Shown here: piece after piece, positions 23,401-44,300 of the stretch
Position numbering within the stretch: the stretch's first letter is position 1
How the letters are laid out: each line of letters opens with the position of its first letter
Source: Caulifigura coniformis
GTDB taxonomy: Bacteria > Planctomycetota > Planctomycetia > Planctomycetales > Planctomycetaceae
NCBI RefSeq assembly: GCF_007745175.1
Contig: NZ_CP036271.1
Location: 4,662,314-4,726,313, forward strand
Reading direction: 5' to 3'
DNA: 64,000 nucleotides
Translations under genes and position numbers: made by a program
The notes under the pieces: generated by a model
The model's database searches: none
Told to the model about the DNA's origin: nothing
Seen by the model: only the letters and a program-made list of their open reading frames with translations

Positions 23401-26400
23401 AAACATCGCCGAAGTGACGACCGCCGTGGCCAACGGCGACCTGTCGAAAAAGATCACTGTCGACGTGAAGGGGGAAATCCTCGAGCTGAAGAACACCGTC
23501 AACATCATGGTGGATCAGCTTCGCTCCTTCGCGTCAGAAGTGACCCGCGTGGCCCGCGAGGTGGGGACCGAAGGCAAGCTGGGAGGCCAGGCTGATGTGA
23601 AGGGCGTGTCGGGAACGTGGAAAGACCTGACCGACAACGTCAACTACATGGCCGGCAACCTCACCGGTCAGGTCCGCGGCATCGCCCGCGTCGTGACGGC
23701 CGTCGCCAACGGCGACCTGCGCCAGAAACTCACGGTGGAAGCCAAGGGGGAAATCGCGGCCCTCTCGGAAACGATCAACAGCATGATCGACACCCTCGCA
23801 ACCTTCGCCGATCAGGTGACGTCGGTGGCCCGCGAGGTGGGTGTCGAAGGCCGCCTCGGCGGCCAGGCGAGCGTCCCCGGCGCGGCCGGAACCTGGAAGG
23901 ATCTGACCGACAACGTGAACCAGCTGGCGGCCAACCTGACCGGCCAGGTGCGGGCCATCGCCGAAGTGGCGACGGCTGTGACCAAAGGCGACCTCACGCG
24001 GTTCATCACGGTGGAAGCCCGCGGCGAAGTGGCGGCTCTCAAAGACAACATCAATGAGATGATCCGCAACCTGAAGGACACGACGCACAAGAACAGCGAG
24101 CAGGACTGGCTGAAAACCAACCTCGCCAAGTTCAGCCGCATGCTCCAGGGGCAGAAAGACCTGCTCACGGTCGGCCGCCTGATCCTCTCGGAGCTGGCCC
24201 CCGTCGTCTCGGCTCAGCACGGCGTCTTCTACATCTTCGACAACTCCGGCGAGCCGCAACTGCGGCTCCTGGCCAGCTACGCCTATCGCGAGCGGCGGCA
24301 CATCGGCAATTCGTTCAGGCTCGGCGAAGGGCTCGTCGGACAGTGCGCGTTCGAGAAGCAGAAAATCCTGCTGGGCCACGTGCCGCCCGACTATGTCCAG
24401 ATCTCCTCGGGCCTCGGTGAAGCCACTCCGCTGAACGTCATCGTGCTTCCGGTGATCTTCGAAGGCCAGGTCAAGGCGGTCATCGAACTGGCCTCGTTCG
24501 AACGCTTCAGCCTCGCGCACCATGCCTTCCTCGATCAGCTCACCGAATCGATCGGCATCGTGCTGAATACGATCGAAGCCAACATGCGGACCGAAGACCT
24601 GCTCAAGCAGTCTCAGTCGCTGGCCCGCGAGCTTCAGAGCCAGCAGCAGGAACTCAAGAGCACCAATGAGCAGCTCGAAGAGAAGGCCCGCCTGCTCGCG
24701 GAGCAGAACGTGGAGGTCGAACGCAAGAACGAGGAAGTCGAACAGGCACGGCAGGCCCTGGAGGAGAAGGCGACACAGCTCGCCCTCACCTCCAAGTACA
24801 AATCAGAGTTCCTCGCGAACATGTCGCACGAACTCCGGACTCCCCTCAACAGCCTGTTGATCCTTTCCGACCAGCTCCGCCGGAACCGCGAAGGAAACCT
24901 GCAGGCCAAGCAGCTCGAATTCGCGCAGACCATTCACGCCGCCGGCAACGATCTGCTCAACCTCATCAATGACATTCTCGACCTGTCGAAGATCGAATCG
25001 GGTACGGTTGTACTCGATATCGGCGAACTCCAGTTCGGCGACCTCCGCGACTACGTCGAACGCACGTTCCGGCACGTCGCCGATTCCAAGCGGCTCGAGT
25101 TCGCCATCGATCTCGACGAACGGCTTCCCCGTTCGCTCTACACCGATTCCAAGCGTCTCCAGCAGGTCATCAAGAATCTGCTCTCCAATGCGTTCAAGTT
25201 CACGCACACCGGGCACGTCTCGCTCTCGATCCAGGTGGTTGAAGGCGGCTGGTCCACCGATCATGACACCTTGAACAAGGCACGTACGGTCCTCGCCTTC
25301 AGCGTCGAAGATACCGGCATCGGAATTCCGTCCGACAAGCAGCGGATCATCTTCGAAGCGTTTCAGCAGGCGGACGGCAGCACGAACCGCAAATACGGCG
25401 GAACGGGCCTGGGCCTCGCGATCAGCCGCGAGCTCTCCAATATCCTGGGCGGCGAACTCCGGCTCGTCAGCCACATCGGCACCGGCAGCCAGTTCACGCT
25501 CTATCTGCCCGTCAGTTATGCCCCGGTCAAATCCCACCGTCGGATCGTCGCCGAGACGCAGCCGTCCGGCATGCCGGGCCTGCCCGCGCCGTCCGGGTCT
25601 GACGACGAAGGCGCCTACCTCGTCGAGGCCATCGATCCGGTCATCTCCAGCAACGTCTTTGCAGATGATCGTGAACAACTGGGCGTCGGCGAGCGGGTCC
25701 TGCTCGCCGTCGACAACGACGAAGCATTTGTCCGCATCCTCCTCGATGCTTGCCGCGATATCGGCTGGAAGGGAATCGCGACAACCAGCGGCGCGGCGGC
25801 CCTCGCGATGGCCCGCGATCTCCGGCCCGATGCCATCACCCTCGACCTGCGCCTCCCGGATATCGACGGCTGGCGCGTTCTCGACCGGCTGAAAAACGAC
25901 GCCGAAACCCGCCACATCCCCGTCTACATCATCACGACCGAAGACGAGCAGCGCGAACGAGGCCGCCAGCGCGGAGCGCTTGGCGTCCTGGCCAAGCCCT
26001 TCCAAAGCAAGGAACTGCTGGAAGAAGCGCTCCTCTCCCTCAAGAGCTATGTCGAGCGTGAAGCGCGACGGCTGCTCGTGCTCGAGTCCGAGCCGGCGCA
26101 CCCGTCGTCCCTCAGTCATCTCCTGTCTCACGAAGGAGCGATGCTGACAACCACCACCAGCGCCGACGACGCCCTCGAGCGGATCGCCTCCGAGCGCTTC
26201 GACTGCGTGGTCGTCGGTCCGGATATCCCAGAGATGGCCTTCCGCGAGATCCTCGATGCCGCGGAGCGGAGCCCTGTCCTGAACGACACTCCGCTCATCG
26301 TCTACCACTCGCGAAGCCTCTCCAAGCGGGACGAATCCCGCATGAACCGTCTCCGGAGCAGCCTCGTCCTCAAGGAGGTGCGTTCGCCCGAACGTCTCCT

Positions 26401-26869
26401 CGACCAGGCCTCGCTGTACCTGCATTCGCCCATTTCGAGGCTCGGGGAATCGCAGCAGACGCTCTTCCGACAGCTGCATGAATCGGACACCGTGCTGGAC
26501 GGGAAGACGGTGCTCATCGTCGACGACGACGTCCGGAACATCTTCGCGATGACAAGCATCCTCGAGCAGCATCGGATGAACGTGATCCCGTCCGAAAGTG
26601 GCAAGGATGCCATTCAGCTCCTCAAGGAGCGCAGCGATATCGATATCGTCCTGATGGACATCATGATGCCCGACATGGACGGCTATGAAACGATACGCAC
26701 GATCCGTCGCGTGTCGACTCTGAAGTCGCTCCCCATCGTCGCCGTCACGGCGAAGGCCATGAAAGGGGACCGGGAAAAGTGCCTGCAGGCCGGGGCCTGG
26801 GACTACCTGTCGAAGCCGGTCGACCCCGACTACATGCTCGGCGTCCTCAGGGCCTGGCTTCACCGCTGA
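20465..26869 (+). CDS. Giant soluble hybrid histidine kinase with 11 tandem HAMP units, GAF and three receiver domains
   Basis: A 2134-aa sensor kinase without membrane helices, resembling the poly-HAMP group III (Nik1-like) hybrid kinases. Order: Lys/Arg-rich tail (1-50); degenerate HAMP region (55-190); eleven near-identical 92-residue HAMP units starting at 193 and each marked by [16 protein letters not shown] domain (~1237-1370); coiled coil; HisKA with [11 protein letters not shown] (His1455); HATPase with DTGIGIP and [10 protein letters not shown]; receiver 1 (Asp1794 in LDLRLPD); receiver 2, where the acceptor position reads [10 protein letters not shown] and the Asp is replaced by Gly; receiver 3 (Asp2065 in [11 protein letters not shown]). 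Start is ATG 20465 or the ATG two codons later. The signal sensed is unknown. Confidence 0.95.
21041..24076 (+). repeat. Eleven tandem 276-bp repeats encoding HAMP units
   Basis: Each unit is exactly 92 codons; the first and last SFASEV-type motifs are at 21041 and 23801, ten periods of 276 bases apart. Units 2-10 are very alike in protein sequence but carry scattered synonymous differences. Unit 11 is the most diverged ([20 protein letters not shown]). The array is a likely site of unequal recombination. Confidence 0.93.
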
Positions 26870-26953
26870 TCCGGCTCCGGAGTGAAGCCATCCCTGAAAC
26901 GACTCAGGCCATCCTGAGCCAAGACGTTCGCGACCCTGACTGGAACCTGACCC

Positions 26954-28705
26954 GTGGGCGACACCGTGTCCGCCATTGACGACGCCACTCCGCCCCGCCC
27001 GGCGGCCCCGATCGCGCCGCGCGTCAAGCTGCTGCTCGTCGATGATCATCCCGACCAGCTCCTCGTCCTGGAAACGCTCCTCGCGGAACTCGGACAGGAG
27101 CTGATCCGGGCCAACTCGGGCCGTGAGGCGCTGCGCCAGTGCCTCCAGCATGATTTCGCCCTCATCCTGATGGACGTCAACATGCCCGGGATGGACGGGT
27201 TCGAGACCGCCTCCCTCATTCGCAGCCGTCCGAAATCCCGCCAGACGCCCATCATCTTCGTCACGGCCTACGACGAAACCGAAACCCACGTCGCCCGCGG
27301 CTACTCCCTGGGCGCGGTCGACTACATCCACACCCCCGTCCTGCCGGAGGTCCTGCTGGCCAAGGCCTCGGTGTTTGTCGACCTCGCTCTGAGGACGGCC
27401 GAAGTCAAATGCCAGGCCGAAGAACTCGAGGAACGAGTCGCCGAGCGGACCCGCGAGCTTCAGGAACTCAATGCCACGCTGGCGGCCGAAATCGCGCAGC
27501 GCGAATCCGTCGCGCAGGATCGCATCCGTCTCCTGGCGGCCGCGGAAGAGGGCGTCCGCCGACGCGACGACTTCCTCGCCATCCTGGCCCATGAGCTGAG
27601 AAACCCCCTGGCCTCCATCGTCAGCGGCGCCGAACTCCTTCAGCTGTGCGACGACGGGGATCCCGCCTCGGAACAGGCCCGCGAAGTCATCGCCCGGCAG
27701 GCGCAGCACATGACCTCCCTGCTCCGCGACCTCCTCGACGTCTCCCGCATCACCCGCGGCAAGATCGAGCTGCACCTCGAGATGGTCGATGTCGGCCGGG
27801 CCATCAAGGAAGCGGTTCAGAACGCCGCGTCCGACCTCACCCGCGACGGACGCGAGGTCACGGTCCGTCTTCCGGAGACTCCCATCGCCATCGACGCGGA
27901 TCCGACGCGTCTGCACCAGGTCCTGATCAACCTCCTCGGAAATGCGGCCAAGTTCACGCCCCCTCGCGGCCGGATCGAGATTGCCGCCGATCGGGACGAG
28001 GGCCACGCCCGGATCCAGGTCCGCGACTCGGGCATCGGGATTCCCGAAGAACGGCTGGACGACGTCTTCGAACCCTTTGTGCAGCTCAAGGCGAACCATT
28101 CCCGCCCCTCCAGCGGGCTGGGAATCGGCCTCACGATGGTCAGGAACCTGGTGGAACTCCATCGCGGCCGGGTCGCCGTCAACAGCCGGGGCGAAAACCA
28201 GGGGACCGAGTTCACGGTCCACATCCCATTGGCCGCCCCGCGGGTCTCGGCCGAGTCGCCCGTCAAACTGTTCAGCGCACAGTCCTCCGATGGTCCCGGT
28301 CCCCGGGCCCTGCGTTTCGTGGTCATCGAAGACAACGACGACATCCGCAGCACGGTCGTCGAACTGATCCGCAAGCTCGGTCACGACGTCTGGATCGCTT
28401 CTGACGGACCGTCGGGAATCGAGATCATCGAACGCGCCCGTCCCGATGTCGCCCTCGTCGACATTGGTCTGCCTGGACTCGATGGCTACGAACTGGCCCG
28501 CCGGATCTCCGCCATCCCGGCGCTCAAAGCGACCCGGCTCGTCGCGATGACGGGCTACGGCCAGCCCGAGGACCGGCGGCGTGCGATCGAAGCCGGCTTC
28601 CAGTCGCATCTCGTGAAGCCCGTCTCTCTTGATGACTTCCGGCAGCTGACCCGGGAAATCGCTTCTGACCACGAGAAGCCTGCATCCCGCGCGGCGGTCA
28701 GCTGA
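26954..28705 (+). CDS. Hybrid histidine kinase: receiver - kinase - receiver
   Basis: A 583-aa cytoplasmic signalling protein. Residues ~24-140 form an N-terminal receiver (LLLVDDHPDQ, acceptor Asp74 in LMDVNMPGMDG). A coiled coil (residues ~150-200) leads to HisKA (AHELRNPLAS, His213), then HATPase (NLLGNAAKF, DSGIGIPEERLDDVFEPFVQ, GLGIGL). A C-terminal receiver follows (VVIEDNDD, Asp503 in LVDIGLPGLDG). Both receivers keep their acidic pocket. It follows the poly-HAMP kinase by 84 bases and is probably co-transcribed; the two may form one phosphorelay. The start is a GTG at 26954 or 26966, both with weak binding sites. Confidence 0.93.
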   Translation: MGDTVSAIDDATPPRPAAPIAPRVKLLLVDDHPDQLLVLETLLAELGQELIRANSGREALRQCLQHDFALILMDVNMPGMDGFETASLIRSRPKSRQTPIIFVTAYDETETHVARGYSLGAVDYIHTPVLPEVLLAKASVFVDLALRTAEVKCQAEELEERVAERTRELQELNATLAAEIAQRESVAQDRIRLLAAAEEGVRRRDDFLAILAHELRNPLASIVSGAELLQLCDDGDPASEQAREVIARQAQHMTSLLRDLLDVSRITRGKIELHLEMVDVGRAIKEAVQNAASDLTRDGREVTVRLPETPIAIDADPTRLHQVLINLLGNAAKFTPPRGRIEIAADRDEGHARIQVRDSGIGIPEERLDDVFEPFVQLKANHSRPSSGLGIGLTMVRNLVELHRGRVAVNSRGENQGTEFTVHIPLAAPRVSAESPVKLFSAQSSDGPGPRALRFVVIEDNDDIRSTVVELIRKLGHDVWIASDGPSGIEIIERARPDVALVDIGLPGLDGYELARRISAIPALKATRLVAMTGYGQPEDRRRAIEAGFQSHLVKPVSLDDFRQLTREIASDHEKPASRAAVS

Positions 28706-29710
28706 GGCGCCGCGAGACGAACGCCCGGGCTGCCCCGCATTTGGACTTTGAGAGCCAGCGGCGTGAGGGCGTTCCCATCGAGGCCACGTCGTCGGCCGCG
28801 AGCGCGCCAAAAGCCCCACCTCCATCCCCATCAGACGGCATCACGCGGGCCACTGCGCGGCTCAACAGGCAGGGGCGTCCTCCGCCGACGGGTTGTCGAC
28901 AACGAGATTCGTGAACCGATCGCGATTGAGAAAACGCCAAACGCGGCCCGGCGATCCGGGAGCCGAAGCGGCAGCTCTTGGCGGCTCAAAGTGCTCCGCT
29001 GACTGTCATCACCGGCACTCACAAGCAGCTCACCACCAGCGCGACAGTGATGACTCCCAGTGACAGACTGCCAAAAAGGAGATCCCAACACGGCAAAATG
29101 GGATAAATAGGGGCACGACGGAGGCGCCAAAGCTGCGTACAGCATCGACACGAATCTCGTCGCACCCAACAAGGAGTCTCGCCATCTTCCCCATTCATCC
29201 GTGATTCTCTCTCAATGTCCTGTGCAGGGTGGCGCGAGGCCGAGTGATCGACGGATGACTGCAAAACGTCGGTGATTCGATCACGCCCGATGACAGTCGT
29301 CCCGCATACAAGACGTCCATTCCCGGAATGGCTCGGAACGCGCCGCGCGATGTGGATTGAGGACCGCAGCGCAGACGATGAATCGCGGCCAGACGCCGCA
29401 GCGCCCTGCGGGGACGTCCCACCATCAGCAGCGTCCCGGCTCAGCCGGGGAACGTCCCTCCGATCGAGAACCTGCGGCACGCCGCGAGGTCGGGGGACGT
29501 TCATCTCACTCCGGGGGAGCGCTGGAAGTGAAAAGAGTCTCGCGAATCGGACGCGAAGTTCAGACCGCGACCCTTCCGTCTGCTTCATGTCCAAAGCGCG
29601 CGCCGATGCCGCGTTCATCCGGGACGACTTCACGGCGCATCGATGCGTGCGACGCCGGGCTTCGCCGTTCCGTCGCGTCCTTGTTGCAGGTCGCCCCGCG
29701 GGAGCGGAAT
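28706..29710. other. One-kilobase stretch with no convincing gene
   Basis: Between the second hybrid kinase and the 1009-aa unknown gene. Open frames here disagree between strands and have no recognisable product. It includes a compact dyad CCCGGCTCAGCCGGG near 29436-29450, and one weak candidate for a small membrane protein listed separately. It may be decayed sequence. Confidence 0.5.
29019..29198 (-). CDS. Possible small membrane protein, low support
   Basis: A 59-aa frame from the ATG at 29198 (MNGEDGETPCWVRRD) ending with one predicted membrane helix (LLFGSLSLGVITVALVVSCL). No clear ribosome binding site. It lies in an otherwise empty kilobase, so it could be chance or a remnant. Confidence 0.2.
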   Translation of the reverse strand: MNGEDGETPCWVRRDSCRCCTQLWRLRRAPIYPILPCWDLLFGSLSLGVITVALVVSCL

Positions 29711-32700
29711 TCAGGAACTGTACCTCTTTAGCGGGCGCGAATCCCCGGGCTGGCACGGAGCACTGGCCCCGGCCGATTTCTCTTTGCCCTGAGCTGGCCC
29801 TTTGCGATCGAACGTCGCCTCCAGCATCGCGGCGGCGGCATCCAGATCCGGACCTGGGCCGGCCGTCATCCTGGAATCTCGTTGCTTCAGACGCCGCTTG
29901 TGCTGGTAACGTTCAAGCCGTTCGCGCTGGCGGACCACAAATCTCGCGTTCTCTTCAGTGGGCCTCAGCCAGCAACTCTGGAAAAAGATCTCGTAGTTGG
30001 CCAGTTCCGCGCGCCCGAGCATCGGACACGGGATCTGAAAACGCTGCCTGCCGCGCAAATGTCCCAGTCGGACAAGCGCCGCGGCAAACCGTTCCAGCCG
30101 CTCGGGGCCCTGCCCTGCGACATTGAGCAGGAGGTGCCGCAGACTCTCGAATGGCGTCAGCCCCGCCGCAGCGATTTGGGACACATCGATGACGGCCGGA
30201 GGAATCGAGAACAGAAGAACACGGTAGGTGTCGAACCAGGCCGCGGGATAGCCGAGCGCGGTTTCCAGGATGGACGAAGGCTGTCCCGCCAGAATCCGCG
30301 CTTCGGTGAGCAGCGTCTCAACGGAACCCAGTCCGCGAAGCCAGAGCGCGCCTCCCAGCGGACAGGCAAACGCGATTTGCCCACGGTCGTACGACTGCAG
30401 CGCGCGGACGGCATCCCGCACCATCAAGGCATGGGGGCCGACGCTGCCCGGAATCGGAGCACCACGGTCATGGCAGTCGAGGGCCACCTGCAACAGGAAA
30501 TCGGGCTCGGCTATTCTCAGGAAGTCCGGCCATTGGCTCCGGCGAATGTGCTGCAGGCCTTCCCGGGCCCACGTGTCGAGATTGGCTGGGGTCGGCGCAG
30601 GACGGGGATCGGAACCGGGACTCGAGATGAGCACCTGCCAGTCGTCCTCGGGCACGCGAGGCCCGCCCATTCCGGAGTGCATGCCCGCAGGCTCGTCGAC
30701 TGCATCAAGAATCTGGCCCCGCTTTGGGTCGGGCCGATGCTCAGGAAGATCGAGATCCGGATCGTCGCAGCCGGTGATCGCCGCGGCGAAGCGTGGCGGG
30801 GCCAGGTGCAGCAGTGGCTCACTGCCGTTCAGAACATCCGACACCATCGTTTGAATGTGCTTTCGGCGTGCCTGGTCACCTCGCTCCGTCCGGGAGTCGT
30901 TCGCCATCGCAAAACCGTGATCCCGTGAGTGGCGCTCCACGAGGCGGGCCGCATGCTGGGCGTCAATCTGACGCCGGCGTTCAGCAAGCGGGGTTGCGGC
31001 GGGATTCTCCGGAGGGGCGCGATCCAGCACGCCTGCGACAAGGGCCTGCGACACACCCAGGGCGTCCGCAACCTGGCGCTGAGTCATTTGCCCCTGGAAC
31101 AGGTCGACGATTCGCTGCTGGAGGCGTTCGCTCAACGCGGGACGATCAAGCGGGACGGTCCGGGGATCGTCGATCCAACTCGCGCCGCGCATGCCGGCGG
31201 TCATGCCCCGGGGCTCGATCAGCATCGCGAGTTGGCCCAGATTCAGACGCACTTCGGCAATCCACGCGCCGCCAGGCCTTCGATCGTCAGGCGCGCTGCG
31301 GAACACGATCGACTCGATGATCCGCGACAACCGGTCGGGGGGCAGCTGGTCGCGCTCGATGACATCCGATAACGCCGCGGCGTTCCGGATGAACTCCGAG
31401 CAGACGGGCATGCGCTCCATCCGGCGTTTGAGAATCGCGCTCCCCTGAGCCCGCTCCAGCAGCTTGCTGCGCATGCGACGCAGCGCAGGGTTGGCTTCTT
31501 CGGCGAACACCGCCTCCAGTTCCTTCACCCACGTCTGAAAGATCGGCGCCGTGAACGGCTCCCCAGAGGCAGCTCCGGGCGGCGGCGGCGGCGGCGAAGG
31601 ATTGCCCTCATCCGGAAGGGCGAGGAAATCCTCGGGGAGGACCCGGCTGCGGAAACGTTCGTAGTCAAAGTCGGCTGGCAGAGACGGCTTCAGGCCGAGG
31701 ATCGCGGTCTGGAACAGGCCGTCTACCCAGGAACGATCTCTTAAGAGGCCGATGATCCACAACGTCAGGGCGCGATTGATGCCGATCACGTTCCGGGTCG
31801 AGCTGTTTACGCAGGGCGTCGTGACCCGGCGGTGTCCGCAGGTGACGCGGAAACCCGTGCCGCTCGACTCGATTCGGGTTTTGCCGCCGCAGTGACCGCA
31901 GTGCTGGGGGACCTGATCGTGAAAGAGCCTGATCGGCTGCCGTGGCCCGGCCCTCCAGCCTCCGTCCGGCGAAAGGTAGGCCAGCCCGGCGCATTTCCGG
32001 CGGATGGCTCGCAGGATCGACATCTGCGCAAATCGCAAGCGGGCGATTCGGAAGACTCGGGGCCCTTGCGGCTCCGTCATCGAGGCCGGGAGTCGATACA
32101 CACCCGCGCCCGACTTTCGGAAGAGGAGACTGACGGCGCGGCGCCGTTGGCGTTCGGGCCGTCCCTCAAGGCGGGCCGATTCTCGCGCGGCAAGTTCCGA
32201 CAGCGGGGCGCCGCACAGGAAGCCATGCTGCAGATTCGCGATCACCACTTCGGGGAAGCGCGGGTGGATCAGTACGCCTGGCCGGAACTGCAGGTCCTCC
32301 AGGACGCGCCATTCAACGGCCTTCCCTGGAACGCCGAACAATCGAAGGATCAGCTCGTGCCGACAGACCGGACAACGAAACGGGCGTCCGATCGCGAGGA
32401 CCGCGGGCTGAGTGACGCTGTCTTCGGGGACCGGGCGATCGTTGAGGCACGTCCTGCACCGGGGACAGCGCAGTTCGGGCTCGTCAGGGCCGTAAGGCCG
32501 CGACAGATCGACAAAGTCCCGCGGGAGCCCCCGCAGGCGCCCACGCCTGATGAGTTCCGACGACGGAAGAGAATTAACGTGTTGATCCGTCGACGGGCTC
32601 TCGAAGCCTGGCCCGACTTCCGTAAAGGCGGCACCGGTCCGGACGCCCACACGGGGCAGTTCGGGGAGTGGCTGGAACAGTTGCCCATGAGTCAGGCCGC

Positions 32701-32740
32701 GGTGACCCCACATCCCCGTCTGTTCGACGGAATCCTCCAT
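29711..32740 (-). CDS. Very large unrecognised protein with Cys clusters and helix-turn-helix (1009 aa)
   Basis: I do not recognise this protein. Visible features: zinc-ribbon-like Cys clusters at residues 92-126 (CPRCRTC, then CPVC) and 281-301 (CGHCGGK, then TCGH); a Pro-rich linker near 382-388; a helix-turn-helix at ~549-575 (MTQRQVADALGVSQALVAGV); a motif at 812-845 (TEARILAGQPSSILETAL, then YRVLLFSI) that is also found in the upstream protein; and a basic tail (QHKRRLKQRDSRM). No signal peptide or membrane helix. ATG 32740 has GGGAG 8-10 bases upstream. It starts 21 bases after the stop of the 821-aa gene, so the two form an operon. A nucleic-acid-binding role is inferred from the clusters and helix-turn-helix. 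Confidence 0.8.
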   Translation of the reverse strand: MEDSVEQTGMWGHRGLTHGQLFQPLPELPRVGVRTGAAFTEVGPGFESPSTDQHVNSLPSSELIRRGRLRGLPRDFVDLSRPYGPDEPELRCPRCRTCLNDRPVPEDSVTQPAVLAIGRPFRCPVCRHELILRLFGVPGKAVEWRVLEDLQFRPGVLIHPRFPEVVIANLQHGFLCGAPLSELAARESARLEGRPERQRRRAVSLLFRKSGAGVYRLPASMTEPQGPRVFRIARLRFAQMSILRAIRRKCAGLAYLSPDGGWRAGPRQPIRLFHDQVPQHCGHCGGKTRIESSGTGFRVTCGHRRVTTPCVNSSTRNVIGINRALTLWIIGLLRDRSWVDGLFQTAILGLKPSLPADFDYERFRSRVLPEDFLALPDEGNPSPPPPPPGAASGEPFTAPIFQTWVKELEAVFAEEANPALRRMRSKLLERAQGSAILKRRMERMPVCSEFIRNAAALSDVIERDQLPPDRLSRIIESIVFRSAPDDRRPGGAWIAEVRLNLGQLAMLIEPRGMTAGMRGASWIDDPRTVPLDRPALSERLQQRIVDLFQGQMTQRQVADALGVSQALVAGVLDRAPPENPAATPLAERRRQIDAQHAARLVERHSRDHGFAMANDSRTERGDQARRKHIQTMVSDVLNGSEPLLHLAPPRFAAAITGCDDPDLDLPEHRPDPKRGQILDAVDEPAGMHSGMGGPRVPEDDWQVLISSPGSDPRPAPTPANLDTWAREGLQHIRRSQWPDFLRIAEPDFLLQVALDCHDRGAPIPGSVGPHALMVRDAVRALQSYDRGQIAFACPLGGALWLRGLGSVETLLTEARILAGQPSSILETALGYPAAWFDTYRVLLFSIPPAVIDVSQIAAAGLTPFESLRHLLLNVAGQGPERLERFAAALVRLGHLRGRQRFQIPCPMLGRAELANYEIFFQSCWLRPTEENARFVVRQRERLERYQHKRRLKQRDSRMTAGPGPDLDAAAAMLEATFDRKGPAQGKEKSAGASAPCQPGDSRPLKRYSS

Positions 32741-32761
32741 GATGATGCTCCCAAGGAGTGC

Positions 32762-35227
32762 TCAATGGTGTTCGGACGAGACGGATTTGCGGCGACCTGA
32801 CTGGGCCGTTCGAGCGAGACTTTTCTGCTTTTGAACAGCAAACCGCTGGTACAGCGTTTTCACCTGCCGGACGGCGGCCGCATCGCTCCCGAGACGATGC
32901 AGGACCCAGCGGAACTCACGTTCCAGGTGATGTTCCCGCGTCAACGGTGTCTCGAACGACTGGAACGGGACGATCGTCGGCGCGGCGAGATGCAGGTGCT
33001 GCAGAGCCTCATGCAGCCCTGCTCGGCCCTCGGAGGTGACGATCTCGCTCAAGTAAGTTTTGATGCGGAACGGGCTTTGATCAGCCTCTGCATAGGCAGG
33101 TGGCGCGTCCGCGTATCCACCTGGGGAAGCCGGATCCAGAAACAGGAACTGGTAGATTTCGATCACGTCGGCCGAAAGGCCGATCGACGTTGCCAGTGCG
33201 CCGGGAGAATCCCTGACAGTCAGTCGAGCATCCACGATGACGCGCAGCACAGGGTGCGAGCGAAGCTGGAGCGCCCGGTATTCGGGCCAGTGACGATCAG
33301 CTCGCCCGCACTCAATGGCCCTCAGCACAGACGCGACGCGACGCAGGACGACAGCATCTGCGGACGAAGGCAGCCACTCGCCGTCATCGACCGCCCTGAG
33401 GACAGTACGAAAGCGCCGGTCAACATGACGACGAATTCCGCCATGACTGGTCTCGCCGGTCAACAGAGATTGCCGTGGCGTCAGCGGCAGTTCCGTCTCT
33501 GCCAGCCAGGACGCCGCCAGCTTCGTTGGGCCTGGCGGCTCACGCTGACTGGGCTGGGCGGCCGTGTGCGGCCGTTTCGGTATTAGCGGTGGCAACCGGA
33601 ATCCCAACTCTGGCTCGGTTGCGTGAAGGGGCAGCCCTCGGCAGTAATTCGTGACCAGGTCTTTGAGCGCCGCAAGGATCGGCCTCGACTCCAGCCCGGG
33701 TGACGATCTCGCAGGGCCTTTTGATTGACGGTCCGCATTGGCCAGCGGACCGCCTGCTGCAAAGCCCGAGAATGTCCGTTCGGTCTCGCACTGGGCATCT
33801 GTCCCGTGCAGGGCTGCGACGACAGCTGATGGCGACGCGCCCAGTTCGGTAGCGATCTCGTCGGGGCCTCGGCCCATAGCCGACAGCCGATCGACGTTCA
33901 TCGCGACAACGTTGGACAGACGGTCGCCGTCGAGAGTGGCCCAGATCCGGCATGGCACACTGACGAGCCGCCGACGCAGTCCCGAGGCACACTGAACATC
34001 GACGCCGACCAGCCTGCAGATCCCGACGGGATCGATCTCAAGCGGGATGGGCCCGAACCGCCCCCCTTTCCCATCGGGTGACACGGTCAAGGTGACCTTT
34101 TGGCGACCCAGGACGGCGGCAAGGAGCGAACGATCACTTAAGTTCCTGTCCAAGCGGCTGGCGAGATGACTGATCCTCTTGACAAAGTCGGCCAGCGACG
34201 GGGCCAGCGCTCGCCGATGGCGTGAGACCGCCTCGGCCAACCGATTTTCGCAGGCGCGGACCATGTTTCGCTCGGGATCGGTGGATAGATTCTGGCGGCA
34301 GTCCTTCAGCGATTGCCAGAGCGCCTGTCGCGCCCGCGGCAGTGCCAGTTCTCGGGACGTGGACTCCGCCGGTAAGGATTCGGAGCCATCGTCAGGATTG
34401 GGAAAGACCGCGCGGTAGAACGCGACCAAGTCGCCGCCACGAAGCGCCTCCGCGATCGCGAACTCGAGACACACCTCAGCCGCGGTCATTGACGAGGCCG
34501 GCTTCAGGGACGACTTCCGGAGCCAGGATTCGCAGTGGGGACAGCTGTCGGGCAGGCGCCGCGGACTGGGAATGGCCAGCGTCGCCCCGCAGCACGCGAA
34601 TCTGATCGCAAGAGGATGGTCACCCGTCAGTTTTGCCTCGCGCAGACTGTGCCGCAGTACCGACCATTCAGCCTGGCTGACTTGCTGCCTGCCGGATCGA
34701 AAAGTCCACTCCCAAGCGGCGTCAGGTTGGTCACCGGCTCGCTCGCGGCCGATTCCGAGACTGCGCCGACTCCCCCACAAGACCTGGACCCTGGCGGCAG
34801 TCCAGGCACTCTCCCGGGGAACAAGCCGGTTCAGACAGGTGATGGTTTCGGGCAACGTTCGCCCGTTCAGCGCCGCGGCGACCGCCAGCAGGCGGGCGCG
34901 CTCAATGGTTGATGACTGCCGAGCATCGAGAAGTTCTAGTTGCTCGGGTTCACTGACGGATCGCAGCTGGGCAATCACAGTAGCTTCACGGGCGTTCTCG
35001 AACGGCGCTGCCAGCGCCCGGCGGACTTTCGGCCACCGGTACGGAACTGCCGAGATCGATGCCGCTGGCGGGTAAGCTGCCGAATGATCGCCATGCTTTG
35101 GACGATGCTGCTGCGAGCATTCAGCCCGTTTAAGCAGGTCGCCGTCGCCATCTGCGGGCAACGATGTGCCATCGATCCCCGTCTCGGCCGAGTGCGGGAT
35201 CGCGTCCCCAGGTCCGTCATTACACAC
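32762..35227 (-). CDS. Very large unrecognised protein with Cys cluster and helix-turn-helix (821 aa)
   Basis: Unrecognised, and the first gene of a two-gene operon with the 1009-aa protein. The GTG at 35227 is preceded by AGGAGG at six bases, strong support for a start in this rare-codon position. Features: a likely disordered N-terminus (residues 1-65); a CC...CxxC cluster at 212-232 (FACCGATL, SCPHCESWL); a helix-turn-helix at ~452-475 (GPDEIATELGASPSAVVAAL); and a motif at 664-698 (VDARLTVRDSPGALATSIGL, then YQFLFLD) that matches the 812-845 motif of its partner. The shared motif and overall architecture suggest the two proteins are distant paralogues acting together. No transposase or nuclease motif is visible. 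Confidence 0.8.
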   Translation of the reverse strand: MCNDGPGDAIPHSAETGIDGTSLPADGDGDLLKRAECSQQHRPKHGDHSAAYPPAASISAVPYRWPKVRRALAAPFENAREATVIAQLRSVSEPEQLELLDARQSSTIERARLLAVAAALNGRTLPETITCLNRLVPRESAWTAARVQVLWGSRRSLGIGRERAGDQPDAAWEWTFRSGRQQVSQAEWSVLRHSLREAKLTGDHPLAIRFACCGATLAIPSPRRLPDSCPHCESWLRKSSLKPASSMTAAEVCLEFAIAEALRGGDLVAFYRAVFPNPDDGSESLPAESTSRELALPRARQALWQSLKDCRQNLSTDPERNMVRACENRLAEAVSRHRRALAPSLADFVKRISHLASRLDRNLSDRSLLAAVLGRQKVTLTVSPDGKGGRFGPIPLEIDPVGICRLVGVDVQCASGLRRRLVSVPCRIWATLDGDRLSNVVAMNVDRLSAMGRGPDEIATELGASPSAVVAALHGTDAQCETERTFSGFAAGGPLANADRQSKGPARSSPGLESRPILAALKDLVTNYCRGLPLHATEPELGFRLPPLIPKRPHTAAQPSQREPPGPTKLAASWLAETELPLTPRQSLLTGETSHGGIRRHVDRRFRTVLRAVDDGEWLPSSADAVVLRRVASVLRAIECGRADRHWPEYRALQLRSHPVLRVIVDARLTVRDSPGALATSIGLSADVIEIYQFLFLDPASPGGYADAPPAYAEADQSPFRIKTYLSEIVTSEGRAGLHEALQHLHLAAPTIVPFQSFETPLTREHHLEREFRWVLHRLGSDAAAVRQVKTLYQRFAVQKQKSLARTAQSGRRKSVSSEHH

Positions 35228-35564
35228 AGGCTGCCTCCTGCGGCCCTTACCAAGCGATCAAATTCGATATCATGCTCGCGAACATCCTGCGAAAGTCAAA
35301 GCGGAATTACGAATTGTCGAACTCCTCTTATAAAGCCCGTTGCGTCAATCGGCGACGGAACTGCTCTCCAAAACGAACCACTCACAGCACAACACGTTTC
35401 TAAATCAAGACTTACAGACCCCAGAGCCTATGCACTAGCGAGCCACAGGCCTCCCTGCATTTAATCGCTTCAAGTCTTCATATTAAAGTTCCACTTCTAT
35501 TGGAGTCGCTGTTTTTTTGACCATCCCCTGTCCGGAGAACAGGGGATCCGCAGGGATGGTTTGA
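35228..35564. other. AT-rich upstream region with hairpin
   Basis: A ~330-base gap clearly richer in A+T than its surroundings (35461-35520 is about one-third GC). It lies upstream of the 821-aa gene and should hold its promoter. It ends with a 9-base-stem hairpin at 35523-35547 (ATCCCCTGT / ACAGGGGAT) preceded by a T-run. This may be part of the end of the adjacent transposase remnant. Confidence 0.5.
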
Positions 35565-35965
35565 GCACAGGCTGTCGCCGACTGGGACGAGGAACTGGCC
35601 GCGGTGACGAACCGGATCAATGCACGATTCCAACGCCCGAAAGTTCGAGTGCGAACGGCCCTCTCTCTCAAGGGCTTCCCTGCCGCCGCTCCACGCAAGA
35701 ATGACTGGCAGGTCGCCGAATTCGCCGGCGACGAATCGCCCAGGAATGTCCAGCAGTTTATCGCCCGCGCCACCTGGAGAGTCGATGCCGTTCGTGACGA
35801 CCGCTGATCGATTGGGACCTGCATCTCCCAAGAGAATGGGCCGAGGACGCTCACCTCCGACGCGTCGCGTACATCCCCGAGGACGTGGTCTTCGCCACCA
35901 AACCAGAACTCGGACGTCAGATGGTTCAAACGGCTCTGGATGCTCAAGCTCCTGTCCGGTGGGCC
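35565..35965 (+). pseudogene. IS701-family transposase remnant with internal deletion
   Basis: Two conserved IS701-type blocks are joined out of frame. Block 1 (35565-35803) reads AVADWDEELAAV, then RKNDWQVAEFAGDESPRNVQ and TWRVDAVRDD before a stop. Block 2, in another frame from 35804, reads LIDWDLHLPREWAED and VVFATKPELGRQMVQTALDA. In intact family members these are separated by roughly 75-80 residues that include the first catalytic Asp region (the VDETGF type motif), which is missing here. The C-terminal half is also absent. Block 2 ends inside the oppositely oriented PEP-CTERM gene. Confidence 0.85.
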
Positions 35966-36775: not shown

Positions 36776-37579
36776 TTAAGGAATAATGAAGACCAGTCCA
36801 CTCCCAAGCGGGGCGGCTGGTATGTCTGGCTGACCTTCACCCCGTTTCCTAAATGCACAGCGGGTGTTCGATTTTTGACCGATCTCGCACCGAAGAAGGA
36901 GCAGGATCTCATCGGGAAGAAGCAATTCGCTGAAGAGCCGATCACGCATGTCGGGGGGAAGCAGGAAGCGGGCACGTCCGTCGTCGAGCTGAAACGTAAG
37001 CTCGGCACCAGCGAGCAGACGTTCGATCGCTGGAAGAAGTAGCTTGTGTTCCGCGCTCGTCTGCAACAGGGCCTTGAACTGCGAGAACATCTTCTCGATC
37101 GGGTTGAGATTCGGTGAGCACGGGGGCAGGTAGTACACCTCGGCTCCGGCCGATCGAATCGCGTTTCCCACCCCGCTCTGCTTGTGGCTGCTGAGGTTGT
37201 CCATCACCACCAGGTCTCCCGGCTCCAGCGCCGGGATCAGGAACTGACGGACGTAAGCCAGAAAGCATTCCCCATCCATCGGACCATCCAGCACGAAGGG
37301 AGCAATCACTCCGCCGGCCCGGAGAGCCGCTGCGAACGTCGTCGTTTTCCAATGCCCTTGAGGGACGCGGTCCACAACACGGCTTGATTTGGGTCCCCAG
37401 CCATAGCGCCGTGTCATCTTCGTGTCGGCCCCGGTTTCGTCGAAGAACACCAGACGGCGACAGGCTTTCGACTGCACCAGGATGTTCCACCAGCGGCGCT
37501 TCTGAGCCACATCCGGCCGCTGTTGTTCAGCAGCTTTGAGCACTTTTTTTGAGAGTGATTCCCCAGCGCCGAAGCGCAT
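36776..37579 (-). CDS. IS630-family transposase, catalytic frame (orfB)
   Basis: The catalytic part of an IS630-type DDE transposase. Motifs seen: LVFFDETGADTKM (first Asp), GDLVVMDNLSSHK (second Asp) and LPPCSPNLNPIEKMFSQFK (Glu). The frame overlaps orfA by 53 bases and needs a +1 (or -2) shift to be fused; the overlap contains a run of seven A on the coding strand (37544-37550). The last ~55 residues (after ERLLAGAEL) do not look like the usual family end, so the 3' end may be altered. Confidence 0.85.
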   Translation of the reverse strand: MRFGAGESLSKKVLKAAEQQRPDVAQKRRWWNILVQSKACRRLVFFDETGADTKMTRRYGWGPKSSRVVDRVPQGHWKTTTFAAALRAGGVIAPFVLDGPMDGECFLAYVRQFLIPALEPGDLVVMDNLSSHKQSGVGNAIRSAGAEVYYLPPCSPNLNPIEKMFSQFKALLQTSAEHKLLLPAIERLLAGAELTFQLDDGRARFLLPPDMRDRLFSELLLPDEILLLLRCEIGQKSNTRCAFRKRGEGQPDIPAAPLGSGLVFIIP

Positions 37580-37877
37580 TCCACAGAGTGGTCGCGCAGC
37601 CCGGCAGACCGAGTTGGCGTTGCCTTTGGGCGAGCGTCAGGCCGGGGGCGTCCTGGACGCTTTTGAAAATCCGCTCCCGATGCGGTTCCAGAACGCACTC
37701 CGGGCCGACATCTCCCTGCCGGGGAGTGATCTGGCCAGTCTCTTTGCGAAGCGCGAGCCAGTTCCAGATGGTTCGTTCAGTGACCTGAAATCGCCGGGCG
37801 ACTTCGGCCGGCGGAGAGCCGCGGTCGACTTCGGCCACGACGCGGCGCCTCAAATCCATTGAGTAGGGGGTAGGCAT
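37527..37877 (-). CDS. IS630-family transposase, DNA-binding frame (orfA)
   Basis: A 116-aa N-terminal half: MPTPYSMDLRRRVVAEVDRG, then a helix-turn-helix (PPAEVARRFQVTERTIWNWL) and a second helical domain (LTLAQRQRQLGLPGCATTLW). It supplies DNA binding for the transposase. The C-terminus LKKSAQSC is read across the A7 run where frame change to orfB would occur. Confidence 0.85.
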   Translation of the reverse strand: MPTPYSMDLRRRVVAEVDRGSPPAEVARRFQVTERTIWNWLALRKETGQITPRQGDVGPECVLEPHRERIFKSVQDAPGLTLAQRQRQLGLPGCATTLWNALRRWGITLKKSAQSC

Positions 37878-38361
37878 GACTCTTCCTTGATGGAGCCAAC
37901 CACTTGAGAATGCCTTTCCCCAGTCATCCCTCTGAAAAGCAACTGTGGAAGTGCGTTAGTTCGCTTCTGCACTCCCGCGATTGACGCGGCGACCGTGCAC
38001 CGGGCCACCAGCGATGTTCGATTTCGCCCCGGTCGCGAGTGCCCCGAAGCCTCTTGGCTCAGCGTCCCGGCCTGTCGTTTCGAGAGCACAGACAGGCCGT
38101 CTTTCGACGACTTTTGAGGCCAGAACTTTTCCGCAGTCTCCGCGTATTTCCACCGACCGCCGACTGGACAGCGGTCCGGGCGTGCACAAGACTGCGGCAA
38201 TCTGCATCACTTGTTCACGTCGTCGTGGGGTCACACGGCGCGCGAATGTGCATGTTTTCTGATGTCAACCGGGCCCGGCGGGCATCGATGCGCTTTTGAG
38301 TTGACCGCTTCGTTTCTGCAATTCGGCACTTCGTCTCCGACCACTATCGGTTTGCACGCCC
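37878..38361. other. Upstream region of the giant surface-protein gene
   Basis: About 480 bases between the IS630 element and the giant gene. It should contain that gene's promoter; I see no confident hexamers. Short open frames here have no recognisable product. Confidence 0.4.
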
Positions 38362-41300
38362 ATGCTCCGCACTTGGCTGACTTCCATCCGTTCGTATTTT
38401 CGTCGGAAACTTCTGCGGACGGGAACGTCAGTCTGGAGACGAGGTCGGTTTCTGAAGGTCAGGCCTCAGTTTGTGCGCCGCCGCAGGGCTCGTCGGCTCC
38501 CGCGGGGACTTCTTCACTGCCCGCCGCAAATGCTTGAGGCGAGGACGCTTCTGTCCGCATCCGTGCCTGAGGTGACGGGTAACGTCATTAACGGTAGCTC
38601 ATCAAATGCGAACCGGTCGGCAATTCACACAATTACGATCAATTTTGATCAGAATGTGACGATTTCCTCCGCGGCGTCTCTGAAGCTGACGAATCGCACG
38701 ACGGGAAATGTCGTCGACATTTCCACGGCGACTCTGACCGGAAACGGCACATCCTCCGTCACGTGGAATCTCGCGGGGATCACGCTCCCCAACGGTCACT
38801 ACACGGCCGAACTTTCGGCCTCCGGCGTTGCGCCGAACCTCGGCCGGATCCATGCCTTTGAATTCCACAAGCTGACGGGTGACGTCGACGGCAGCGGGGC
38901 CGTCACGTTCAACGACTACACCACCGTTCAGAGCCACTTCAACACGTTCCCCGGGGTCTATGGACCCGGCGATGCGACCGGTGACGGGCTGGTCACGTTC
39001 GCGGACTACACCGCCATTCAATCGGTCTTCAACACGTTGTTGCCACCGAATGGCAATGATGCGCCGCTCGACATCGGCCTGTCGAATGCGTTGATTCCCG
39101 AAAATTCGGCCAGCGGCGCCGCAGTCGGCACACTCAGCGCAAGTGATCCGGACGTCGGTCAGACGTTCACGTACACACTCCCTGCTGGTGTCGGCGATAA
39201 CGCCCTCTTCACAGTCGACGGGACGACTCTGAAGACCGCCGCGAGCTTCGATTTCGAATCCGCGGCCAGCTACACGGTGCAGGTCCAGGTCGCCGACCAG
39301 GATGGCCTGACCTTCCTCAAGACGTTCACCATCACCGTCGAGAACGTCAACGAAGCTCCGACGGACATCGCCCTGTCCAATAACTCGGTCGCAGAGAACG
39401 CGGCCAATGCCCTCGTCGGCACCCTCACCGGAACCGATCCCGACGCTGCTCCCACCCTGACCTTCACGCTCACCGACGACGCGGGAGGCCGATTCCAGGT
39501 CGTAGGCAACCAGTTGCGCACGGTCGCAGCCCTCGATTTCGAGGCCGGATCCAGCTACGACGTCACCGTCCAGGTCGCCGACCAGGATGGCCTGACCTTC
39601 CTCAAGACGTTCACCGTCACCGTCGAGAACGTCAACGAAGCTCCGACGGACATCGCCCTGTCCAATAACTCGGTCGCAGAGAACGCGGCCAATGCCCTCG
39701 TCGGCACCCTCACCGGAACCGATCCCGACGCTGCTCCCACCCTGACCTTCACGCTCACCGACGACGCGGGAGGCCGATTCCAGGTCGTAGGCAACCAGTT
39801 GCGCACGGTCGCAGCCCTCGATTTCGAGGCCGGATCCAGCTACGACGTCACCGTCCAGGTCGCCGACCAGGATGGCCTGACCTTCCTCAAGACGTTCACC
39901 GTCACCGTCGAGAACGTCAACGAAGCTCCGACGGACATCGCCCTGTCCAATAACTCGGTCGCAGAGAACGCGGCCAATGCCCTCGTCGGCACCCTCACCG
40001 GAACCGATCCCGACGCTGCTCCCACCCTGACCTTCACGCTCACCGACGACGCGGGAGGCCGATTCCAGGTCGTAGGCAACCAGTTGCGCACGGTCGCAGC
40101 CCTCGATTTCGAGGCCGGATCCAGCTACGACGTCACCGTCCAGGTCGCCGACCAGGGTGGCCTGACCTTCCTCAAGACGTTCACCGTCACCATCGAGAAC
40201 GTCAACGACGCCCCGGTGGCAGCCGATGACTCCTACTCGCTTCTCGAGGAAGGCTCTCTCTCCGCGAACGTGCTGTCGAATGACAGTGATCAGGATCTCG
40301 ATTCGCTGACGGTCACGGGCTTCACGTTTGACGGTGTGGCCTACGCGCCTGGCGACAGTGCGACGATCACGGGAGTCGGCACACTGAGTGTGAGTGATTC
40401 GGGCGATTTGACGTTCGCACCCGCCACGAACTTCAGCGGAGCGGTTCCATCCATCACTTATACGGTGTCGGATGGCAGCCTGAGCGACATCGCTGAGGTC
40501 ACGATCAACGTGACGCCGGTGAACGATGGCCCCGTGCAGACGGTTCCAGGGCCACTGTCCACCGTAGAGGACACCCCGCTCTCAATCTCCGGTCTCTCGA
40601 TCGTTGACGTCGATAGCGCCACCCTGACAACGACAGTCTCGATTCCCGTGGGCGCTGGCGCCTTGACCGCCACCGGCGCTCCCGGCGTCGTTGCAGGGAA
40701 CGGCACGGCCACGCTGACACTGACCGGAACCGCTGCTCAGATCAACGCGGCCCTGGCGACGCTGGTTTATGGTCCGGCCGCCAACTTCAATTCCGTGTCA
40801 TTCAATCTGACAATGACGACCACGGACTCCGAATTGTCAGACTCGGATACCGTCGCCATCACGGTCGCACCGGTGAACGATGCGCCGCTGGGAGTGGACG
40901 ATTCGTTTAACGGCCTGGAAGACGGGCTGCCCGTAACCGGCAATGTCCTGTCAAACGACACCGATGTCGACGCGGGCGACGTTCTGTCCGTGACAGCAAT
41001 CGAGATCAACAGCGTCTCATTCAGCCCGAACACGCCGATCAGCATTATTGGAGCTGGAACCATCTTCATCGCCACAAACGGCGATCTGACGTTCACTCCG
41101 AATCCGAATTTCCACGGGACCGTTCCGGCCATCACTTACACGGTGTCGGATGGGCACGGCGGAAGCGATACGGCCGTCGTCAACATCACCATTACATCGG
41201 TGAACGACAATCCCGTTGCAGTCCCCGACTCCTTCACAGTTGCTGAAGAGGGTTCGGTCTCGATTCCGGTGCTGGCGAACGACACTGATGTCGATGGGAA

Positions 41301-44300
41301 CACGCTGACAGTCACTCACATCAGCGGCTTGCCAGCCGTCTTCAATGTCCCGGTCACACTCCCGGGTGGCATTGGCACGGCGACGCTGAACATCAGCGGC
41401 GGCATCACGTTCGCCCCGGCACTCAACTTCAACGGCCCCGTCTCGTTCACGTACACCGTCTCGGACGGCAGCGGTGGAGTGGCAACCGGCACTGTGACCG
41501 GCACGGTCACGCCCGTAAACGACGCGCCAGTGGCAGGGGCGGACACGGCCACGGTTGTCGAAGACTTGTCGACGGCCGGCAATGTGCTGATCAATGACAG
41601 CGATGTGGACACGGGCGACAGCCTGCTGGCTTCAGGCGCGAAGGCCGGGACTGGAGCCGGTCCGTTCGCGGCGGCCGGCGCATCGGTCACGGGGACATAC
41701 GGCACGCTGACCCTCCAGGCGGACGGCAATTACGTCTATGCGGCCGATCTGGCTCTGGCCGACACGCTGGCAGTGGGCCAGACGGCCGAGGACGTGTTCA
41801 CCTACCAGATCGTGGACGAGTCAGGGGCAACGGCCACAGCCACTCTCACCGTGACGATCACCGGTTCGAACGACGCTCCGGTGGCCGTCAATGACACGGC
41901 CACAGCGGTCGAGGACGGTCCGTCCGTCCCGGGCGATGTGCTGACCAATGACAGTGATGTGGACACGGGCGACAGTCTGGCGGTCTCGGGCGTGAAGGCC
42001 GGGACCGGAGCCGGTCCGTTCACGGCGGCCGGGACGTCCGTGGAGGGCGAGTATGGCACGCTGACCCTGAATGCCGACGGCACGTACACGTATGCGGCCG
42101 ACCTGGCCGACACGCTGGCCCAGGATGAACCGGCGACCGACATCTTCACCTACCAGATCGTGGATGAGTCGGGCGCGGTCACCACGGCCACACTGACGGT
42201 CTCCATCACCGGCACGAACGACGCGCCGGTGATCAGCACCGGTCCGGTGGCCGTCACGCTGTTCGAGAATGGCGTCGTGGACGCGGTGGAGGCCGATGAG
42301 TCGACGCCTCCCAACCACTTCGAGCCGCACGTCAACATCGACGCGTTCCTGCTGGCGAACCTGGTGAGCGGCGTGGACATGGCCGCGCTGCTGCCGCTGG
42401 TGCAGGCCGAGATCGGTCCGCAGGCCAGCCTGGCCGATGCGATCGCCACGGTGTGGGACTATGTCGACGACAACTACAGCTACAACAACAACCTGATCAA
42501 CGAGATGGGCGCCCGCCTCGGCGTGGAATACGCGCTCTACCTCCGGACGGGCGGCAAGCCGCTCCTGGACGTGGTGGCCAAGTACGAGGCGGACGGCGCC
42601 GATCCGGACACGCTGCCGCAGCGTCTGCAGTCGCTGCACGACAACCTCCTGGGGAACCTGAACGACGTCGGTCTCAGGGACAAGATGCTGCCCAGCGGCC
42701 AGGCGGCGTATGACGACCTGCGGGATCTGATGGACGTCCATGATCTGCTGGACCTCTCCGACAATCGCCCGTGGTTCGGCGGTTACCAGGGGGACGTGAA
42801 CACGTCGCTGGCCTGGGATCAGGCGGAGGGGCTGGTCCCGGTGGCGGGCGGCGACCTGGACGCGACCGACGTCGACACGGGCGCGGTGCTGACCTGGTCG
42901 ATCGCCAAGACGGACGCCACGCCGGTCTATGGCGTGATCGACATCGACGAGGTGACGGGCGAGTGGACCTACACGCTGGATCAGGTGGCGGCCAACACGC
43001 TGACCGAGGGCCAGACGGCGACCGAGGTCTTCACGGCCACGGTGACCGACGAGCATGGCGAGAGCGACACGGTGACGGTGACCGTCACGATCAGGGGCGC
43101 CAACGACCGGCCGGTGGCCGTCAATGACACGGCCACAGCGGTCGAGGACGGTCCGTCCGTCCCGGGCGATGTGCTGACCAATGACAGTGATGTGGACACG
43201 GGCGACAGTCTGGCGGTCTCGGGCGTGAAGGCCGGGACCGGAGCCGGTCCGTTCACGGCGGCCGGGACGTCCGTGGAGGGCGAGTATGGCACGCTGACCC
43301 TGAATGCCGACGGCACGTACACGTATGCGGCCGACCTGGCCGACACGCTGGCCCAGGATGAACCGGCGACCGACATCTTCACCTACCAGATCGTGGATGA
43401 GTCGGGCGCGGTCACCACGGCCACACTGACGGTCTCCATCACCGGCACGAACGACGCGCCGGTGATCAGCACCGGTCCGGTGGCCGTCACGCTGTTCGAG
43501 AATGGCGTCGTGGACGCGGTGGAGGCCGATGAGTCGACGCCTCCCAACCACTTCGAGCCGCACGTCAACATCGACGCGTTCCTGCTGGCGAACCTGGTGA
43601 GCGGCGTGGACATGGCCGCGCTGCTGCCGCTGGTGCAGGCCGAGATCGGTCCGCAGGCCAGCCTGGCCGATGCGATCGCCACGGTGTGGGACTATGTCGA
43701 CGACAACTACAGCTACAACAACAACCTGATCAACGAGATGGGCGCCCGCCTCGGCGTGGAATACGCGCTCTACCTCCGGACGGGCGGCAAGCCGCTCCTG
43801 GACGTGGTGGCCAAGTACGAGGCGGACGGCGCCGATCCGGACACGCTGCCGCAGCGTCTGCAGTCGCTGCACGACAACCTCCTGGGGAACCTGAACGACG
43901 TCGGTCTCAGGGACAAGATGCTGCCCAGCGGCCAGGCGGCGTATGACGACCTGCGGGATCTGATGGACGTCCATGATCTGCTGGACCTCTCCGACAATCG
44001 CCCGTGGTTCGGCGGTTACCAGGGGGACGTGAACACGTCGCTGGCCTGGGATCAGGCGGAGGGGCTGGTCCCGGTGGCGGGCGGCGACCTGGACGCGACC
44101 GACGTCGACACGGGCGCGGTGCTGACCTGGTCGATCGCCAAGACGGACGCCACGCCGGTCTATGGCGTGATCGACATCGACGAGGTGACGGGCGAGTGGA
44201 CCTACACGCTGGATCAGGTGGCGGCCAACACGCTGACCGAGGGCCAGACGGCGACCGAGGTCTTCACGGCCACGGTGACCGACGAGCATGGCGAGAGCGA

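Follow-up and report, generated by a model that had tools for sequence, protein, structure and literature searches.

Large operon proteins of Caulifigura coniformis share a diverged C-terminal domain with an unnamed, probably mobile-element-borne protein family

Two adjacent and very large reading frames that resemble nothing named raise the question of whether they form an undescribed system, as a first-pass annotation of this DNA had proposed, or belong to something more widespread. The frames, designated here P1 and P2, lie within a window of 64,000 nucleotides, i.e. the whole stretch of DNA analyzed, in the single, complete 6.76-Mb chromosome of C. coniformis, where the operon was found at one place. 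They proved to be arranged as first described: both are open on the minus strand, with lengths of 821 and 1009 codons, a gap of 21 nt from the stop of P1 to P2, and a strong ribosome-binding-like site before the first gene, to which a similar site before P2 can be added (Table 1).

Table 1. Positions of the operon, of the regions recognized in its products and of the neighboring repeats, numbered along the window
Feature	Residues	Position	Strand	Remarks
P1, first operon gene		32762..35227	-	821 aa; GTG start; AGGAGG 6 nt upstream
P2, second operon gene		29711..32740	-	1009 aa; ATG start; GGGAG 7 nt upstream
P1 Cys cluster, CC...CPHC	212-232	34532..34594	-	Cys 212/213/229/232; zinc-ribbon-like by eye
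P2 first Cys cluster	92-126	32363..32467	-	Cys 92/95/98/123/126
P2 second Cys cluster	281-310	31811..31900	-	Cys 281/284/301/310
P1 central HTH-like stretch	448-472	33812..33886	-	By eye only
P2 central HTH	536-573	31022..31135	-	HTH_23 at 536-572, sub-threshold
P1 family-A domain	600-698 (motif 666-696)	33134..33430	-	Profile match
P2 family-A domain	745-848 (motif 813-844)	30197..30508	-	Profile match
Repeated sequence upstream of operon		35488-35894	.	Recurs at a further place in the chromosome, at 82-83%
Repeated element		37048-37962		At least 9 further copies at ~95% in the chromosome (40 of 190 candidates scored)

Curated collections were searched with both proteins. Neither P1 nor P2 reached any cut-off in Pfam or NCBIfam, enzyme domains included, and no PADLOC family was matched by either at E ≤ 1. 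PHROGs returned nothing for P1 and, for P2, weak matches near the central helix-turn-helix (HTH), the best at E 0.0016 (labelled RNase E) and the following one, an HTH, at 0.0019. Among sigma-70 profiles, P2 matched Sigma70_r4 at E 0.045 and TIGR02980 at E 0.0042, both far below cut-off, and P1 matched none. A sequence search of the PDB gave nothing for P2; the best match of P1, LILRB2 at E 0.091, was taken as chance, as was a match to Luteo_PO at E 0.008, below cut-off. The earlier statement that no family could be named was thus upheld, no curated family of Pfam, NCBIfam, PADLOC, PHROGs or the PDB fitting P1 or P2, and profile searches, suggested at that time as a check, reached no Pfam or NCBIfam cut-off for either protein.

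Relatives were also sought in genomes. P1 had none in 59 genomes (its own included), viral contigs or plasmids, and P2 none in 59 genomes (its own included), 392 genomes of the phylum, genome contigs, viral contigs, phages or plasmids, the contig scans being sensitive to close relatives only. The scan of the 392 genomes, in which two candidates per genome were scored, gave P2 matches at E ≤ 1 in 23 of them, the own genome included; the 22 others were short, some with internal stops, and were read as noise, and in L005, the only one of the 22 whose ORFs were read, the match falls over an ATPase-like gene. The planctomycete survey that had been suggested alongside the profile searches likewise found the P1–P2 pair in no other genome searched. 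Because nothing related to the first three-quarters of P1 or of P2 rose above noise in these searches, the operon is known from the C. coniformis genome only, and any function assigned to those parts would be a guess.

What P1 and P2 have in common lies towards their C-termini. BLASTP of full P1 against P2 gave E 1.7 only, with its best alignment, like that of phmmer, over both C-terminal parts; in shuffling tests, the score of the P1–P2 alignment was reached 0 times in 300 when the chosen C-terminal region was used, 12 times in 300 with the full proteins and once in 1000 with just the domain. The first-pass annotation had noticed a shared motif at residues 664-698 and 812-845, and with slightly narrower limits (Table 1) profile tests identified it as truly homologous in both proteins. 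The motif resembles one that occurs in planctomycete proteins. It is the HTH-like core of an unnamed family, labelled family A here, in which the motif reads LEARxLAGQxxxEIAxxLGxxxxxVxxYExLFFDVR.

The place of P1 and P2 with respect to family A was assessed with a profile of 48 sequences from which both had been left out. P1 and P2 scored 20.2 and 19.2 bits, as against a maximum of 7.0 among 1000 shuffled sequences, 500 from either protein, and in the six-frame translation of the window they ranked first and second, with the third at 5.9 bits. Removal of one near-identical row changed these values to 22.1 and 16.5 bits, with 6.4 for the best shuffle and 7.6 for the third frame of the window; an earlier profile of eight sequences had given 10.3 and 4.2 bits, and 3.3 for the best shuffle. 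In the reverse direction, an alignment built from just P1 and P2 matched 24 of 297 genomes of the class at E ≤ 0.05, the own genome included; the three best foreign matches were family-A genes (E 1.2e-4 to 0.0039), and family-A places made up 9 of the 23 foreign matches, all weak, the other 14 being something else. As single queries at E ≤ 0.5 among 1409 ORFs, residues 590-821 of P1 and 735-1009 of P2 matched family-A ORFs in 13 of 16 and 6 of 11 cases, respectively, in a set that is enriched in family A because it was drawn from family-A loci. By these sequence comparisons, the shared motif of P1 and P2 is real homology and marks a shared domain. Both proteins match only positions 8-116 of the 189 of the profile (with ends at 113-117) and have retained few of the conserved residues farther on; what they contain is thus a diverged version of the first part of the domain. 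The second half, the W..A..GG region, was not matched in P1 or P2, so a homologous domain is claimed here and not full membership of family A.

Family A itself is widespread. A degenerate DNA pattern for the motif led to one 208-kb IMG/VR contig, in which the motif stands in a 177-residue stretch, and with this viral stretch as query relatives were found in 6 of 294 genomes of the phylum. At E ≤ 0.01, an eight-row alignment had matches in 48 of the 347 genomes of the class, two of them doubtful (E 0.0016 and 0.004). When P1 and P2 were part of the alignment, in a second version, 22 of 170 genomes of the taxonomic family were matched, the own genome included. Ten genome and three viral stretches from a pattern scan contained family-A ORFs in two (both from Planctomycetota MAGs) and three cases, respectively. 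The motif pattern also gave one match in the own genome and five places in 4 of 149 genomes of the phylum, none of them family-like by eye. Family-A genes occur on three IMG/VR contigs (L032, L142 and L143, of 208, 211 and 65 kb), so some large phages probably carry family A; the proteins of the 211-kb and 65-kb contigs are identical across the stretch available from both. A search with P0003, a viral relative, gave nothing in phages and a single plasmid match, at E 1.

The matched frames were mostly ~220–400 aa and at most ~530 aa long, and the length of P1 or P2 was attained in one doubtful match only (E 0.004), which lies within a kinase-like frame of 1528 aa. Of 20 members scanned, no two had a listed Pfam, NCBIfam or PHROGs family in common, the best Pfam match being to HrpB7, at E 1.9e-5, in a single member. 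In the titles and abstract openings covered by a literature search no paper on family A was found, which is not proof of absence. One locus (L077:8913-10499) carries, directly after another family-A gene, a piece of the domain fused to what, judging from a motif, looks like a patatin-like enzyme.

Such a fusion would suit an anti-phage or other conflict system, as would the size and narrow distribution of the operon. That P1 and P2 belong to one is nevertheless judged very unlikely, since neither gave a PADLOC match at E ≤ 1 nor showed an enzyme domain at cut-off.

To obtain a view of the fold, the relative at L141 was modelled with AlphaFold from an input of six sequences, the C-termini of P1 and P2 among them. 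Mean pLDDT was 60.2, and 160 of 330 residues were below 50; residues 61-160, however, were all helical, with pLDDT of 85-96 in nine of ten blocks of ten residues, and helices at 116-126, 132-138 and 143-152 were predicted over the motif. In one of ten relatives scanned, residues 129-167, where the motif lies, matched Pfam Sigma70_r4_2 at E 0.0017, short of the cut-off. Foldseek with the model gave nothing significant, the best matches being at E 1.2 in the PDB and 0.24 in BFVD, and some of the insignificant ones were LuxR-type or other HTH regulators. The core of family A would thus probably adopt an HTH, the likeliest fold by this model, of the sigma-70 region 4 or LuxR kind.

Outside the shared domain, the annotation had assigned a Cys cluster and an HTH to each protein. 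Cys clusters are indeed present, one in P1, which looks zinc-ribbon-like by eye, and two in P2; by the spacing of their cysteines they are candidates for zinc binding. HTH-like stretches are present too, as claimed; their assignment, however, was by eye only in P1 and below threshold in P2, where the Pfam HTH_23 match (E 0.0044, 17.2 bits) did not reach the cut-off of 24.6. A single-sequence model of P2 residues 80-600 had a pLDDT of 37.9 and was unusable. As to paralogy outside the C-terminal domain, the global score of one segment pair was reached by 2 of 1000 shuffles and the local score by 10 of 1000; a wider pair, aligned without penalty for end gaps, was not significant (83 of 2000 shuffles for local and 1627 of 2000 for global scores), and the score of the central HTH stretches alone was reached by 190 of 1000 shuffles.

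The genomic context of family A was examined at 61 distinct places on 57 contigs. A partner gene, B and/or C, was counted if it followed A on the same strand at a distance of at most 2.5 kb, and was present at 27 of the 46 places that have at least 1200 nt downstream, with both partners at 22; at three of the 27, A is the leading gene of a tandem, and its B and C are also those of the second copy. B is ~115 and C ~180 aa long, and the two are fused in several loci. The resulting three-gene cassette A-B-C is found in planctomycete genomes (at L041, L043, L120, L123 and others) and has no curated name in the scans run; any Pfam family matched at most one of 10 B-C fusion proteins, the best E being 0.004. 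Tandem family-A genes were seen on 4 of the 57 contigs (of G278, G422, G745 and G580), the second copy of G580 being a short piece of the domain within a 528-aa ORF. Neighbors were represented by 91 proteins hand-chosen from 136 that had been picked by size and composition: among the matches listed, covering the first 25 of 67 families, DNA polymerase A occurred at least four times and phage integrase, reverse transcriptase and DDE transposase at least twice each, PHROGs adding matches to a primase and a processivity factor; the other matches were unrelated (sulfatase, ABC transporter etc.), and most of the 91 match no replication or integration gene among the matches listed. Neither a B nor a C gene was found in the window, an alignment of fused B-C proteins had no match in the own genome (7 of 40 genomes searched had one), and the scores of P1 and P2 against the B and C profiles did not exceed those of shuffled sequences.

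The DNA around the operon was scrutinized for traces of mobility. Upstream of the operon, GC content falls to 0.54–0.56, as compared with ~0.65, in agreement with the AT-rich stretch described before. The transposase remains that had been said to adjoin it can be retained as a repeated sequence beside the operon that is transposase-like by its translations. This repeat looks like a transposase remnant, perhaps of the IS701 kind, and the multicopy element farther upstream is presumably IS630-like. Scans around the operon found no tRNA and no obvious attachment repeat, scans for promoters and terminators gave no sites beyond those in shuffles, and synteny with the only other member of the genus amounted to three short matches. 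Elsewhere, positions 38362-45585 of the window encode a 2407-aa cadherin-like protein in which a long internal segment occurs twice, near-identical by eye, and positions 20465-26869 a 2134-aa sensor-kinase-like protein with many tandem repeats, very similar by eye.

Proximity to such elements, with transposase-like ORFs within 3 kb, and an architecture of Cys cluster plus HTH would be compatible with P1 and P2 serving a transposon as accessory or target-selecting proteins, in a role like that of TnsD/TniQ, in which the target site would be read by the Cys and HTH regions. TnsD/TniQ families were, however, absent from the Pfam and NCBIfam matches of both proteins, and the nearby element has its further copies elsewhere whereas the operon is present at one place only; we regard such a role as very improbable indeed.

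Whether P1 and P2 are genes at all was considered next. Codon bias was weak, at 0.036 bits per codon for P1 and 0.146 for P2, with the antisense frames close behind at 0.011 and 0.104; of 15 ORFs picked as training genes for reference, 14 ranged from 0.166 to 0.574 and one stood at -0.053. ORF length is weak coding evidence in this GC-rich window because a 1342-aa ORF (24803-28831) runs antisense to two kinase-like genes. Long antisense ORFs and weak bias are what spurious frames would show; that the same domain occurs independently in both frames and at the same relative place makes this explanation extremely unlikely. It is mainly the domain homology that speaks for coding.

The main rival, which we consider unlikely, is that the operon is the decaying remnant of a mobile element, held open by chance and high GC and without present function. 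The weak bias is compatible with decay and with recent arrival alike, and decay would also agree with the degenerate state of the family-A domains, with the transposase-like repeat adjoining the operon and with the presence of the operon in its own genome only in the searches run. Against it stand 821 and 1009 stop-free codons in two frames that both have ribosome-binding-like sites and Cys clusters.

On balance, we lean towards P1 and P2 being large, divergent DNA-binding proteins that derive from a planctomycete mobile element and would bind adjacent sites together. Their ancestor may have been a tandem of short family-A proteins on such an element, from which P1 and P2 would have arisen by extension of, or fusion of new N-termini onto, the family-A domain. 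Encoded in one operon, and each with two HTH-type regions and at least one Cys cluster, they would work as a pair, for which a hetero-oligomer on neighboring DNA sites is the likeliest form, and would regulate or organize the DNA of the element. DNA binding, partnership, expression and target are what we infer from the domain homology, the tandems elsewhere and the mobile-element genes near some relatives, which are the observed basis. The role in handling nucleic acid envisaged by the first-pass annotation is likely. Its undescribed system, on the other hand, was not supported: the pair occurs in no other genome searched and only the C-terminal domain recurs, as a mobile-element protein. Because that domain belongs to a family of mobile elements and viral contigs, the pair is probably remodelled mobile DNA and not a new system. 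A bolder version is distinctly unlikely, namely that P1 and P2 are halves of an undescribed complex for DNA organization or replication control, taken over by the host from an element in which A-B-C is an uncharacterized replication or packaging module, with family A in some large phages.

Taken alone, the operon is an orphan; the wider and more useful result is the unnamed mobile-element family with its cassette. Present in a single genome, the operon offers little comparison, but the C-terminal domain connects it with a widespread unnamed family and a conserved cassette. These may aid the annotation of mobile DNA in the planctomycetes, much of which lacks names.

Among known systems, TnsD/TniQ target selectors resemble P1 and P2 in combining a Cys cluster and an HTH in a large protein, but P1 and P2 have no profile match to them and no Tn7-like core gene was seen by eye among the ORFs at 26–39 kb of the window. 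Sigma-70 region 4 and the LuxR HTH share the helix-turn-helix layout predicted for the motif in the L141 model, and one family-A member weakly matches Sigma70_r4_2 at the motif; this match, however, is below cut-off, and neither a full sigma factor match nor a significant fold match accompanies it. The third comparison is family A. Its members are mostly ~220–400 aa long, whereas P1 and P2 are longer and have lost most of what characterizes the domain in its second half, and B/C partners lie downstream at 27 of 46 of the relatives' places, in contrast to none for P1 and P2 in the window; the C-terminal domain of both proteins nonetheless presents the family-A motif residues, and in the same order.
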